From Asanoa sp. WMMD1127 (lineage in GTDB: Bacteria; Actinomycetota; Actinomycetes; Mycobacteriales; Micromonosporaceae), in the NCBI RefSeq assembly GCF_029626225.1, contig NZ_JARUBP010000001.1, forward strand, positions 4,960,001-5,024,000: a DNA stretch of 64,000 nt. The letters are read 5' to 3'. The stretch's first letter is position 1; the number at the start of each line of letters is the position of its first letter. Below, one piece after another: positions 4,862-8,781 of the stretch. The notes beneath the pieces are model-generated. The model searched no databases. It had not been told where the DNA came from and saw only the letters and a list, made by a program, of their open reading frames with translations. Both the position numbers and the translations under genes were made by a program.

Positions 4862-5212
4862 ATGTCCATCAAGAAGGTCGTGGTCGCCGACGCGCTGGCC
4901 GACGAGGGCAGCCACGAGTGGGGCGCGCCCCGCAGGACCGAGATCCACGCCGACGCGGATCGCGGCCACTCCTGGGAGGCTCCGGTCAAGACGGAGAGCC
5001 GCGACTGGAACTGGCTCGCGCCGCGCAGGACTCCGGTCCGGGCCGAGGTTGACCGCGGCACCGACTGGCTCGCGCCGCGCAAGACGCCGGTGGTCGCCGA
5101 GTTCGACCGCGGCACCGACTGGGAGGCGCCGCTCAAGACACCGATCGAGGGTGAGTCGGCGCGGGACCTCAACTGGGTGGCGCCGCGGACGGCGCCGATC
5201 GACGCGGCCTGA
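4862..5212 (+). CDS. Multi-core RiPP precursor peptide with six W-x-A-P repeats
   Basis: A 116-aa hydrophilic peptide without signal sequence or Cys. After a short N-terminal segment (about residues 1-15) it consists of repeats with Trp at residues 20, 38, 51, 69, 87 and 105. The spacing is 18, 13, 18, 18 and 18. The consensus is DRGTDW-x-AP-[RL]-K-TP-x-x-A-E. The stop is 5 nt before the radical SAM start, so the two are probably co-transcribed. A repetitive core next to a RiPP-maturase-type radical SAM protein is the classic layout of a multi-core precursor. The invariant W-x-A-P-x-x-T core suggests Trp, Pro or Thr as modification sites. The product is unknown to me. Confidence 0.75.
   Translation: MSIKKVVVADALADEGSHEWGAPRRTEIHADADRGHSWEAPVKTESRDWNWLAPRRTPVRAEVDRGTDWLAPRKTPVVAEFDRGTDWEAPLKTPIEGESARDLNWVAPRTAPIDAA
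4907..5197 (+). repeat. Tandem 54-bp coding repeats (one unit 39 bp) in the RiPP precursor
   Basis: Units encode an 18-residue period, each with W-x-A-P-x-x-[TA]. Units 4 and 5 are closest to each other (both begin GACCGCGGCACCGACTGG). The third unit has lost five residues. This points to growth by internal duplication. Confidence 0.8.
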
Positions 5213-5217
5213 CGCCG

Positions 5218-7089
5218 ATGCGGCTGTGTCTGGCCGCGATGCCCTGGCTGGCTCTCGACACGCCGTCGTTGCCGATCGGGATCCTGCGCCGGCGGGTCGC
5301 CGAGACCCGCCCGGCGGACACCGTCGTGGAATACCACGGCGGCCTCCGGTGGGCCGAATACCTGCTTTCGGCCAGCGCGGGTGAGCTGACGCCCAACGAC
5401 TACGTGCGGCTGGGCGACCAGGGTCTCGGGCACGGGCTCGGCGACTGGGTGTTCGCCGGCGCCCTCCACGACGATCCACTGTGGCGGGTCACGGAGCTGC
5501 GCGACCACGCCACCCGGTGGTCCTTCGACCTGGGCCTCGCGGAACGGATGCGGGCGCACGCCGGCGACTTCGTCCGGCTGGCCGCCGACGAGATCCTGCG
5601 CGCCGAGCCCGACCTCGTCGGCTTCACCACCACGTTCATGCAGACGGTGCCGAGCCTCGCCGTCGCAGCCGAGCTCAAGCGCCGCCGGCCCGGCATCGTC
5701 GTCGTGCTCGGCGGCGCCAACTGTGAGGGGCCGATGGGCGCGGCGTTGCACCGCAACCACAGGTTCGTCGACTACGCGGTGCGGGGCGAGGGCGAGATCG
5801 CCTTCCCCGCGCTGCTCGACCACGTCGAGGCCGGCACCGCCCCCGCCGACGTCGCCGGCCTGTGCTGGTGGCGCGGCGCGGAGTCGGTGGCCAATCCCGA
5901 GACGACCGCGAGCGTGCCGCCGGCGCTGATCCCGATGCCCGACTACGACGAGTGGTTCGCCCTCGTCGAGCGGTCGCCGCTGAGCGCCTACCTCAGCCCC
6001 TACGTGTTCATCGAAGGCTCCCGCGGCTGCTGGTGGGGCGAGAAGCACCAGTGCACGTTCTGCGGCCTCAACCCGGAGTTCATCGCCTTCCGCAGCAAGC
6101 CGGCCGAGCGGTTCTGGACCGAGCTGTCGACCCTGGTCGAGCGGCACCAGGTCCTCGACATCATGACCGCCGACAACATCATCGACATGGCCTACTACCG
6201 CGACCTGCTGCCCCGCCTGGCCGCCGCCGACTGGGATGTCCGGCTGCAGTTCGAGGCCAAGGCCAACGTGCAGGCCGAGCACATCGCGATGCTGGCCGAC
6301 GCCGGCGTCTCGTCGGTCCAATATGGAGTGGAAAACCTCGACAGCCGGGTCCTGAAGATCATGGACAAGGGCGTCACGGGCGCCACCAACGTCCGCGTAC
6401 TGCGCGACAGCGAGGACAACTCCATCACCGTGCGCTGGAACTATCTCTACGGCTTCCCGGGGGAGGCCGAGTCCGACTACCTCCCGGTGATCGGGCAGAT
6501 CCCGGCGCTGGTCCACCTGCAGCCGCCCTCCGGCGCGACCCGGATCGCGCTGGAGCGGTTCAGCCCCTACTTCGAGCGGCCCGAGCTCGGCTTCCCGCGC
6601 CGCGAACCGGCCGAGTTCTACCGCTTCAGCTACGACCTGCCCGACTCAGAGCTGCACGACCTGGCCTACTTCTTCGAGTGTGACGACCAGGGCATCGGCG
6701 GCGAGGTCGAGCGGCGGCTCAGCGACGGCATCGAGTGGTGGCGCGACAACTACCCGACCTCAGCGCTGCTGCGGGTCGACGGGGACGACGCGCTGACGAT
6801 CAAGGACCGCCGGGCCGGCTGGCCGCAGCGCGACCACACGCTCACCGGCGTCGCCCGGATCGCCTACGACGCCCTGCGCCGCCCGCGCACCGCGGCCGCG
6901 CTCGGGCGACACCTGCGCGAACAGGGCCATGACGCGGACCTGGTCCCGGAATGGTTGGCCGCGTGGCAGGCCGACGGGTTGGTCTTCCTCGACGGCGCGA
7001 CGTTCGTGGCCCTCGCGCTGCGGAACCTGCCGGTCAAGATCGCCCGGCAGCGTGGGCGAACCCGGCAGCCCGCCGGAGCGCCGGCATGA
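5218..7089 (+). CDS. RiPP-maturation radical SAM protein with N-terminal B12-binding domain
   Basis: A 623-aa protein. Residues 1-230 resemble a cobalamin-binding Rossmann domain (VVLGGANCEGPMG is the loop region). The radical SAM cluster motif is GSRGCWWG-x4-CTFC with Cys at about 271, 279 and 282. This CX7CX2C form is typical of the ribosomal-peptide-maturation radical SAM protein 1 group (TIGR03975-type) rather than canonical CX3CX2C. The C-terminal 110 residues look like a wHTH or precursor-recognition domain. Members are thought to be B12-dependent methyltransferases acting on peptides. It sits directly downstream of the W-x-A-P peptide and overlaps the next gene by 4 nt (ATGA). Confidence 0.85.
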   Translation: MRLCLAAMPWLALDTPSLPIGILRRRVAETRPADTVVEYHGGLRWAEYLLSASAGELTPNDYVRLGDQGLGHGLGDWVFAGALHDDPLWRVTELRDHATRWSFDLGLAERMRAHAGDFVRLAADEILRAEPDLVGFTTTFMQTVPSLAVAAELKRRRPGIVVVLGGANCEGPMGAALHRNHRFVDYAVRGEGEIAFPALLDHVEAGTAPADVAGLCWWRGAESVANPETTASVPPALIPMPDYDEWFALVERSPLSAYLSPYVFIEGSRGCWWGEKHQCTFCGLNPEFIAFRSKPAERFWTELSTLVERHQVLDIMTADNIIDMAYYRDLLPRLAAADWDVRLQFEAKANVQAEHIAMLADAGVSSVQYGVENLDSRVLKIMDKGVTGATNVRVLRDSEDNSITVRWNYLYGFPGEAESDYLPVIGQIPALVHLQPPSGATRIALERFSPYFERPELGFPRREPAEFYRFSYDLPDSELHDLAYFFECDDQGIGGEVERRLSDGIEWWRDNYPTSALLRVDGDDALTIKDRRAGWPQRDHTLTGVARIAYDALRRPRTAAALGRHLREQGHDADLVPEWLAAWQADGLVFLDGATFVALALRNLPVKIARQRGRTRQPAGAPA

Positions 7090-7595
7090 CGACCCATCCG
7101 CACCCGCACGTCGTGGCCGAGCCGATCGTCCTCGCGGCCGATCCGGCGACGCTAACCTTCCTCGCCTGGCTGCGCGACCAGCACTCGGCGACCACCGCCG
7201 TGGCCTGGCGGGCCACCGTCGACCCAGCCCTCGACACGGCACCGCTGCACCACCTGCAGCCGCCCGAGCCGGTCGGCCCGCTGCCGGCCGAGGTCGCCCG
7301 ATGGCGGGCCAGCCACCGGCCGGCGCTGCGCTACTACCGGCGCGGGCCGGGCTTCATCCAGGTCAAAGACGTCCGGCGGCCCAGTGCCGGCGCCCGCTTC
7401 GTGCTCGACCACCCGCCGCTGATCGAGGCGTTCGACCGCTGCCTCGCGCCGACCCGCCTGAGCGACCTCGCCGAGCCCCACCGCCGCGCCGCCGAGGCGC
7501 TGGTCGACGAGCAGCTGTTGATGCTGGTCGATGGCTGGGCTCTCACCCTGCCCTATCGCATGCGCCGCTGGCCCGTCCCCAGTCAGGTCGCCTGA
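7086..7595 (+). CDS. Small RiPP-cluster partner protein, DUF5825-like
   Basis: A 169-aa soluble protein whose ATG overlaps the radical SAM stop. Notable segments are FLAWLRDQHS, a Pro-rich middle, YYRRGPGFIQVKDVR, and a helical C-terminus ending in an LPYRMRRW stretch. From memory this resembles DUF5825 proteins that accompany TIGR03975-type radical SAM enzymes; I could not verify this. A role in precursor binding or delivery is plausible given the strict coupling. The last 13 nt overlap the convergent TenA gene. Confidence 0.55.
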   Translation: MTTHPHPHVVAEPIVLAADPATLTFLAWLRDQHSATTAVAWRATVDPALDTAPLHHLQPPEPVGPLPAEVARWRASHRPALRYYRRGPGFIQVKDVRRPSAGARFVLDHPPLIEAFDRCLAPTRLSDLAEPHRRAAEALVDEQLLMLVDGWALTLPYRMRRWPVPSQVA

Positions 7596-8209
7596 GCCCA
7601 GGCCGCCTCGAAGAAGCCGACCTCGAGCCGCATCGCTCGGCGGTAGACGATGGGCACACGGGAGTCGTCAGGTGCGGCGTAACGGTCGAGGAGGGCTTCC
7701 AGGGTCGCGGCGAGGTCGGCGAAGCCCGGATCGGCGTACGTCCGGATCCACTCGCCGTAGCGGTCGGCCGGTTCCGCGGCGGCGAGCGACCGCCCGAGGT
7801 GCGCGTAGAGGCGCATGCACGGGGTGAGCGCCGCGCAGGTCTGGCCGAGGTTGCCCAGCGCGGCGGTGGCGAGCAGGAAGTCGGTGTAGGCGAGCGTGGC
7901 CGGCAGCGGCTCGACGCGGCCGAGGTCGATGGCGAGGCGCCGCGCGTACCCCTCGTGCAGCCGAAGTTCGTCGCGCACCCCCGACAGCAGGTCCGCGAAC
8001 GCGTCGAAGCCGGCACGGTCGGGGCTGTGGGCGATGGCCAGGGCGTACGCGCGGGCGAACGACTCGAGATAGAAGGCGTCCTGAGCGACGTAGCCCGCGA
8101 ACACGGCCTCCGGCAGCGTCCCGTCCCCGAGGCCGCGGACGAACGGGTGGTCCGACGCGGCCGAGGCCAGGTCGGCGTTGTCGCGCCACAGCGCCGCGGC
8201 GAGGCTCAT
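7583..8209 (-). CDS. TenA/THI-4 family protein (thiaminase II-like), cysteine-containing
   Basis: A 208-aa all-helical protein. It has the TenA landmarks YVAQDAFYL near residue 38, ALTPCMRLYAHLG with the position of the nucleophilic Cys, YGEWIRTYADPGF, and the C-terminal F-x-A-W Glu region. This pattern fits TenA_C enzymes that hydrolyse aminopyrimidines for thiamine salvage. It is downstream of, and overlaps by 4 nt, a second TenA-like gene. No thiamine gene is visible nearby, so thiamine salvage is inferred from the family alone. Confidence 0.75.
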   Translation of the reverse strand: MSLAAALWRDNADLASAASDHPFVRGLGDGTLPEAVFAGYVAQDAFYLESFARAYALAIAHSPDRAGFDAFADLLSGVRDELRLHEGYARRLAIDLGRVEPLPATLAYTDFLLATAALGNLGQTCAALTPCMRLYAHLGRSLAAAEPADRYGEWIRTYADPGFADLAATLEALLDRYAAPDDSRVPIVYRRAMRLEVGFFEAAWAQAT

Positions 8210-8781
8210 GCCGCGTCCCAGAACGCGGTCTCGGCGGCAGCGACCGCGCGGAACACCTCGTCGTCCCCGGCATCGCCGGCGGCCGCCGCCAGCCCGGCCA
8301 CGTAGTCGGCGAACGCCGGCGCGGTCCAGTGCGCGACGTACTCCCGGTAGGCCGGCGCGCCCGGCGCGGCGAACGTCCACGCGTCGAGATAGGCCCGCTC
8401 GATGGCCCACAAACCGACCAACGCCTGGGGCACCGGCGCGGCGTCGAGCCGGCCCAGCAGGTCCCGGTAGGCCAGTGTCGCCGACCCCGGCGCGGTGGCC
8501 AGGTCGAGCCCGTGCTGCGCGGCCCGGTCCTCGAACCAGCTCAGCTCGTCGACCAGGGCCACCAGCCCGGCGGCCAGCACCGCCTGCGCCGGCCGGGGCG
8601 CGCGGGCCAGCAGGCGGGCCTGGAACACCAGCAGGTCGGCGACGAAATGGTGGTCCTGCACGAGCCACGCGGCGAACGCCTCCGCCGGCAACGTGCCGTC
8701 GCGTACGCCGGTCAGGAAGGGGTGCCGGGTGGCCGCGGTCCAGGCGTCCGCATGCCGGTCGAGAAGATCATCCAGCCGCAC
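8206..8781 (-). CDS. TenA-like protein, cysteine-less
   Basis: A 191-aa helical protein with WLVQDHHFVADLLVFQARLL, SWFEDRAA and a C-terminal AAAETAFWDAA segment, all TenA-fold positions. The catalytic-Cys segment is replaced by WAIERAYLDAW, so it belongs with the TenA_E-like or non-thiaminase group. Its stop overlaps the following TenA_C-like start by 4 nt. A coupled Cys-plus and Cys-minus pair suggests a heteromeric or divided activity. The start ATG at 8781 is the only sensible one. Confidence 0.7.
   Translation of the reverse strand: MRLDDLLDRHADAWTAATRHPFLTGVRDGTLPAEAFAAWLVQDHHFVADLLVFQARLLARAPRPAQAVLAAGLVALVDELSWFEDRAAQHGLDLATAPGSATLAYRDLLGRLDAAPVPQALVGLWAIERAYLDAWTFAAPGAPAYREYVAHWTAPAFADYVAGLAAAAGDAGDDEVFRAVAAAETAFWDAA

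Follow-up and report, generated by a model that had tools for sequence, protein, structure and literature searches.

What might a three-gene operon of Asanoa sp. WMMD1127 make, in which a peptide with six tandem W-x-A-P motifs precedes a B12-type radical S-adenosylmethionine (SAM) enzyme? The operon occupies positions 4862 to 7595, on the + strand, of a 64,000-nucleotide stretch (contig NZ_JARUBP010000001.1, positions 4,960,001 to 5,024,000), hereafter the window. An original prediction, made from the letters alone, had taken it for an undescribed system producing a ribosomally synthesized and post-translationally modified peptide (RiPP). Sequence comparisons leave the reading of the three genes as a RiPP locus well supported. 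What is new is the six-fold W-x-A-P core; the machinery is of a known kind, the B12-radical SAM plus DUF5825 type of the clavusporins, so that the word "undescribed" holds for the core and not for the machinery. No described product with a repeated W-x-A-P core was recognised in the literature on B12-radical SAM enzymes and DUF5825, where such a motif is not searchable as a word and subscription journals lay mostly outside the search.

A predicted precursor with six tandem units

The first gene and its parts are as follows.

4862..5212, + strand: predicted multicore RiPP precursor, an open reading frame (ORF) of 116 aa with six W-x-A-P-x-x-[TA] units and a leader common to precursors adjoining homologous enzymes
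4862..4891, + strand: leader strand MSIKKVVVAD, matching the fixed leader pattern of related loci
4919..4939, + strand: core unit 1, WGAPRRT (from sequence)
4973..4993, + strand: core unit 2, WEAPVKT (from sequence)
5012..5032, + strand: core unit 3, WLAPRRT, 13 residues past unit 2 (from sequence)
5066..5086, + strand: core unit 4, WLAPRKT (from sequence)
5120..5140, + strand: core unit 5, WEAPLKT (from sequence)
5174..5194, + strand: core unit 6, WVAPRTA (from sequence)

The coordinates and spacings given originally, an 18-residue period with one 13-residue unit, agree with ours: motif Trp residues stand at 20, 38, 51, 69, 87 and 105, at spacings of 18, 13, 18, 18 and 18. To these we add a Trp outside the units, W49, in the sequence D-W-N-W. 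Such an arrangement is not expected by chance. When the peptide was shuffled 200,000 times, two motifs appeared in 22 shuffles and more than two in none; among the stop-to-stop frames of the whole window, on both strands, one has six motifs and six have one each. The ORF has a coding-like G+C content by codon position (0.70/0.56/0.95).

Codons of the units were compared by pairs, which are not independent of each other. At constant residues, silent and amino-acid-changing differences number 5/0 for Ala, 5/0 for Pro and 9/5 for Thr, the five changing Thr pairs being the T-to-A replacement of unit 6. At positions W+1, +4, +5 and +7, by comparison, 3 silent differences stand against 41 changing ones. 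The W-x-A-P-x-x-T motif is therefore held by selection, more than being a young DNA repeat. Between the units D-R-G linkers recur, and the units are, by eye, hydrophilic and charged and not amphipathic.

Family models did not place the peptide. NF041510 (AMED_5909 family) matches weakly, at 16.9 bits against a cut-off of 35, and a search with this family was blind (0/246 genomes and 0/14 controls). Matches to NF053824 (10.1 bits, cut-off 700) and PF07267 (15.5 bits, cut-off 25) were taken as chance. Ten precursor peptides compared with NCBIfam gave none over cut-off and two weak matches.

The predicted modifying enzyme

Two further genes follow the precursor.

5218..7089, + strand: predicted B12-dependent radical SAM enzyme of the TIGR03975 family, 623 aa (TIGR03975, PF02310, PF04055; model fold)
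6028..6063, + strand: CX7CX2C iron-sulphur cluster motif, C271-x7-C279-x2-C282 (alignment)
7086..7595, + strand: DUF5825 partner protein, 169 aa, overlapping the radical SAM gene by 4 nt (ATGA) (PF19142; model with a mean predicted local distance difference test score, pLDDT, of 93.9; homology to the C-terminal part of the radical SAM enzyme)

The gene order originally described, a radical SAM protein with CX7CX2C 5 nt downstream of the peptide and a coupled small third gene, is borne out by the ATG at 5218, 5 nt past the precursor stop, and by the ATGA overlap. The assignment to TIGR03975 (RiPP maturation radical SAM C-methyltransferase) also stands, at 535.4 bits against a cut-off of 281.85, with residues 4-601 aligned to positions 2-606 of 606. 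PF02310 (B12-binding) and PF04055 (radical-SAM) score over cut-off as well, and CX7CX2C is invariant in all 29 sequences of our alignment A2. The structural model (pLDDT 90.5) matches the folds of OxsB, TokK, MgmA, TsrM and CysS, and the enzyme profile picks out TokK, 9ccb, OxsB and CysS by sequence. The window enzyme is thus of TIGR03975 type, a putative C-methyltransferase with a predicted B12 methylase fold.

Related loci share a leader and differ in their cores

Homologues of the enzyme were collected from genome contigs (60 loci). They occur in 20 of 61 near genomes (E <= 0.001), in 89/350 genomes of the window's family and 21/394 of its class (both E <= 1e-60), in 19/260 genomes of another family, f91 (E <= 1e-100), and elsewhere in 2/7 and 2/35. 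From each genome search the best loci, at most 30, were analysed. Besides that of the window, five genomes of the genus were covered, and none of them has a close homologue; two give matches at E ~1e-4. Thus, the locus is sporadic in its genus.

After the loci had been oriented by tblastn, short peptides were found 5' of most of the homologous enzymes analysed, with differing bodies and a similar start that can be summarised as M-x-[IVL]-K-K-[VT]-x-[VIL]. The leader pattern M-x-[IVL]-[KRND]-[KR]-[VTI]-x-[VIL] is present on the coding strand at 48 of 69 loci and on the reverse strand at none (20 crude dinucleotide shuffles: mean 0.3, maximum 3). A pattern with a freer start gives 49/69 against 3 on the reverse strand (shuffles: mean 0.1, maximum 1). 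The 69 are non-redundant enzymes of at least 540 bits, the window included, many of them near relatives; 21 different ten-residue starts occur among the pattern-bearing loci. Looser leaders were recognised by eye at 11 loci (L079, L152, L123, L055, L067, L068, L104, L102, L003, L103 and L110). Many Streptomyces precursors read MEIKKVVVRED..RRPAILEKRPTR, and those of Micromonospora MKIKKVAIKKVTHGSCKYHVV.. A conserved leader with varying cores beside homologous enzymes, the hallmark of RiPP precursors, is therefore present here.

Enzymes below 500 bits were left out of a 90-row tree and those below 540 bits out of the leader count. From both, 21 loci were dropped as re-fetched or identical copies or as partial or interrupted enzymes (L031, L142-L147, L026, L028, L025, L030, L151, L149, L150, L122, L097, L100, L075, L094, L130 and L071); two of these, L071 and L094, do carry a leader peptide. 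Core type follows the enzyme tree, with 15 changes against a shuffled mean of 53.8, in a test with 13 labels that include "unknown" (25 rows).

Two groups of these peptides can be described further. At many Streptomyces loci among L036-L083 a highly conserved peptide of 27-28 aa, MEIKKVVVREDQ..RRPAILEKRPTR, often has a GTG start and ends at most ~60 nt from the enzyme; one such locus, L040, has Hen1/Pnkp RNA-repair and arginine deiminase genes as neighbours. A second core type, G-x-C-[KR]-Y, follows a similar leader in Micromonospora and kin (L065, L069, L097-L108, L073 and L093), and L101 has two precursors of this type in a row.

A single unit beside the sister enzyme

Conservation of the peptide beside the enzyme in relatives had been proposed as a check of the prediction, and the sister locus supplies it in one-unit form. 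The enzyme of locus L095 (genome G120) is 61% identical to that of the window and is its sister, with support of 100/98 in a 31-row tree and 98 in the 90-row quick tree; the pair was retested in the smaller tree because the larger gave long-branch warnings. The L095 peptide, MKLKKTEIRGRVAQQRTYEWCAPIGTRRDEALEMDRQPAAVSFIES, has a leader of the same type and a single E-W-C-A-P-I-G-T unit; as with the window peptide, 5 nt separate its end from the enzyme. Of 1,000,000 shuffles of its body, 1,069 contained W-x-A-P-x-x-[TA] and 57 contained E-W-x-A-P-x-x-T. With one such unit in the sister, the window peptide appears to have arisen by six-fold tandem amplification of a conserved core.

Tandem repeats of different 8-aa cores occur in two or three other lineages: S-Y-K-V-D-A-A-R type at L002 (5 units), P-M-I-R-S-A-A-T type at L038 (6 units) and A-V-R-V-A-S-S-P type at L079 (6 or 7 units). 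A single clade of the four repeat-bearing rows is rejected by the approximately unbiased test (p-AU 0.00015; the group was chosen once the 90-row tree was known), and support for uniting L038 with L079 is no more than 82/74. On the tree the repeat state needs 3 changes, 2 of them forced by well-supported branches, with gain and loss not distinguishable.

A scan for internal repeats in the 900 nt upstream of 140 loci, the window included, gave no other W-x-A-P repeat or likely repeat precursor among the best 25; low-complexity or intergenic repeats at L159 and L066 were set aside by eye. Precursor queries of family genomes and plasmids found the six-repeat form nowhere else, in searches insensitive enough to miss the one-unit peptide of G120. 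Their weak matches in 3 of 299 other family genomes (L032-L034; E 0.0017-0.008), with no homologous enzyme in the 3.2 kb analysed, were taken as chance, as was a Sinorhizobium plasmid match, which lies out of frame within the gene of a long T-A-P-D repeat protein.

The DUF5825 partner

The guess that the third gene encodes a DUF5825 protein proved right: PF19142 matches at 88 bits against a cut-off of 25. We looked for such a gene by tblastn (E <= 1e-3) 1.7-2.9 kb past the enzyme start, with 17 copies dropped. It follows 106 of 112 homologues of at least 400 bits (window included) and 2 of 28 homologues of 150-400 bits; these two (L093 and L011) are likely to be close homologues whose reading frames are interrupted. 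The radical SAM/DUF5825 pair therefore marks one branch of the enzyme family.

Profile comparison by hhalign (alignments A1 and A2) aligned 140 DUF5825 columns to columns 387-605 of the radical SAM profile, with a probability of 97.3 and a score of 85.4. Controls scored far lower: reversed radical SAM 18.3, reversed DUF5825 14.0, 60 column-shuffled radical SAM alignments at most 26.6, and other parts of the enzyme 10.9 (residues 1-250) and 13.7 (150-380). Both structural models have the same order of secondary structure (three strands, helices, two strands), the middle helix being very short in DUF5825. By these profiles, the C-terminal part of the partner enzyme and DUF5825 are homologous. 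Since most distant enzymes are without DUF5825, an origin as a detached copy of that part fits; homology itself carries no direction of descent. This relation could explain PF19142, a Pfam family of unknown function, and gives a first testable idea of the partner's role. No statement of it was met in the accessible parts of the literature on DUF5825, searched by that name only.

A proposed pathway and its alternatives

In the accessible part of PMC12257519, a homologous B12-radical SAM/DUF5825 pair is reported to C-methylate amino acids of clavusporins. Leader-guided, repeated C-methylation of each W-x-A-P unit is therefore the best mechanism for the three-gene operon, and we consider it probable, with a good deal of doubt remaining. 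The N-terminal 8-10 residues would be bound by the enzyme/DUF5825 pair, probably as a beta strand, with DUF5825 as a substrate-holding partner. The enzyme would then move along the chain and place at least one methyl group on an unactivated carbon of each of the six units. A protease encoded elsewhere might then release the units as six short peptides much like one another, with the D-R-G linkers that recur between them as possible cutting sites. Among precedents, the accessible text of PMC11285071 describes C-beta methylations by PoyC, which has Cx7Cx2C, and methylation of Phe, Val and Pro by the bottromycin enzymes. Trp would be the first choice of target and Pro the second, because W, A and P recur unchanged in all seven units (the six and that of the sister; T in six), and Val or Ile sits at changing places.

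Several observations weigh against this mechanism. Val or Ile, the usual target of PoyC, lies within or just past every unit (at W+8 in the first unit, at W+4 in the second and in the sister's) and, having no constant place, may yet be what is modified. At 10 of the 69 loci no leader peptide was found (L035, L078, L154, L062, L063, L153, L155, L156, L157 and L109), and two of these, L035 and L078, are fairly close Actinomadura enzymes. Among the genes scanned, the window operon has no protease or major facilitator superfamily (MFS) gene as a direct neighbour, unlike some relatives: MFS genes adjoin L095, L002 and L038, and were not met among the scanned neighbours of L096 and L040. A Foldseek search with the DUF5825 model gave no match at E <= 0.001 and no more than weak local winged-helix pieces, so that the expected fold of RiPP recognition element (RRE, PqqD-like) type is kept as a tentative lead.

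A further point is that another chemistry is known for the enzyme class. PbsB, a B12-radical SAM enzyme of another RiPP, forms C-C cross-links between aromatic residues (PMC12257519, accessible part), so that the window enzyme could instead link each Trp with the residue at position -2 (X-x-W), which would close a small ring in every unit as in triceptides or biphenomycin-type peptides. The residue at Trp-2 is H, H, W, T, T and L in the units and Y in the sister, that is, aromatic or His in four of seven and Thr or Leu in the other three. The PbsB substrates named in the accessible text were hydroxylated aromatics or Tyr, the window neighbours scanned include no hydroxylase gene and no gene for a multinuclear non-heme iron-dependent oxidative enzyme (MNIO), and such accessible sources report methylation precedents for the class of enzyme that comes with DUF5825 and CX7CX2C. 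We regard cross-linking as distinctly unlikely. The units might also be modified and the chain left uncut, as one long decorated molecule such as a surfactant or surface coat. The lack of an adjoining protease gene among the genes scanned agrees with this, and the accessible part of PMC12257519 seemingly cites clavusporins under a title on peptide surfactants, a link of name and title that is our own. Hydrophilic, charged units with recurring linkers speak against it, as does a subtilase gene ~9.5 kb upstream, though nothing ties that gene to the operon; on balance an uncut product appears unlikely. Least of all do we expect the repeat peptide to be a small protein of other role that precedes the enzyme by chance. 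The six-repeat form was indeed seen only once, in insensitive searches. However, the sister's peptide has a like leader, spacing and unit, other relatives adjoin different repeat peptides with similar leaders, and the A, P and T codons are under selection, so that this explanation is very improbable.

B12-radical SAM methylases methylate carbons that are hard for chemists to reach, and few have designable peptide substrates. In this family a short leader, some ten residues long, precedes cores that differ greatly from species to species, and cores in tandem are found in lineages standing apart on the tree. The family thus offers a directly testable platform for the rules of methylation. A broader and more tentative proposal, to which we give somewhat less than even credence, is that the enzyme, guided by the short leader and by DUF5825 as a detached copy of its own C-terminal domain, processively modifies all six cores, and that the leader has repeatedly been refitted with new, amplified cores, making a natural platform for swapping and multiplying cores.

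Comparison with known systems

The known substrates of PoyC/PoyB (polytheonamides) and of the bottromycin methyltransferases are single-core precursors. Cyanobactins, dikaritins and plant peptides have several cores per precursor, as in the window, and are made by other classes of enzyme. No multicore substrate of a B12-radical SAM C-methyltransferase was noticed among the papers listed on these enzymes and on multicore RiPPs. PoyC/PoyB and the bottromycin enzymes are B12-radical SAM C-methyltransferases of ribosomal peptides, as proposed for the window, and PoyC has the same Cx7Cx2C; in contrast to the window, neither DUF5825 nor a precursor with W-x-A-P units in tandem comes up with them in the accessible part of PMC11285071.

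Close in machinery is L171, on Streptomyces clavuligerus plasmid pF1D18A (2392-8797), with genes for an MFS transporter, a prolyl oligopeptidase (POP)-like hydrolase, a precursor, a radical SAM enzyme and DUF5825. To judge from the species name, the order of the genes and the presence of a POP-like hydrolase, it is probably the clavusporin locus; a prolyl oligopeptidase, MpcP, is given for the clavusporin leader in the accessible part of PMC12951456. As in the window, a small precursor stands just upstream of a TIGR03975-type enzyme (44% identical) followed by DUF5825. The L171 precursor, which lies outside the gene table at 5812-5931 (39 aa, MQKDVIHNDPLAGDEENRKPSVGITITVPFRNAEDADED), shows an N-D-P stretch and seems to hold a single core, whereas in that of the window an M-x-I-K-K leader is followed by six W-x-A-P cores. 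Neither an MFS gene nor one for a POP-like hydrolase turned up beside the window operon among the neighbours scanned. By eye, the combination of an N-D-P-type leader with an adjoining prolyl oligopeptidase also occurs at L007, L008 and L021; the window leader, MSIKKVVVAD, differs from that type.

Biphenomycin-type PbsB resembles the window enzyme as a B12-radical SAM enzyme acting on a short peptide. According to the accessible text of PMC12257519, it acts on the motif FHAFRF in place of W-x-A-P and has an MNIO and an arginase as partners; a scan of the neighbours of the window operon brought up neither of the two. Loci related to that of PbsB, with YHxYxY precursors, are reported there to hold a second B12-radical SAM gene with a DUF5825 gene as well.

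Surroundings of the operon

The window neighbours scanned include no look-alikes of RiPP machinery. Upstream of the operon are a GT2-like and a GH113-like gene. The subtilase gene mentioned above (S8 family, 1166 aa) lies with an AI-2E-family transporter gene at L170 (G000 C1 4951872-4956602); a tie of these two genes to the operon was considered and not adopted, as nothing connects them. Downstream, two adjacent genes of the TENA/THI-4/PQQC family (7583-8781) lie on the minus strand, convergent with the operon, and the end of the first overlaps that of the DUF5825 gene by ~13 nt.

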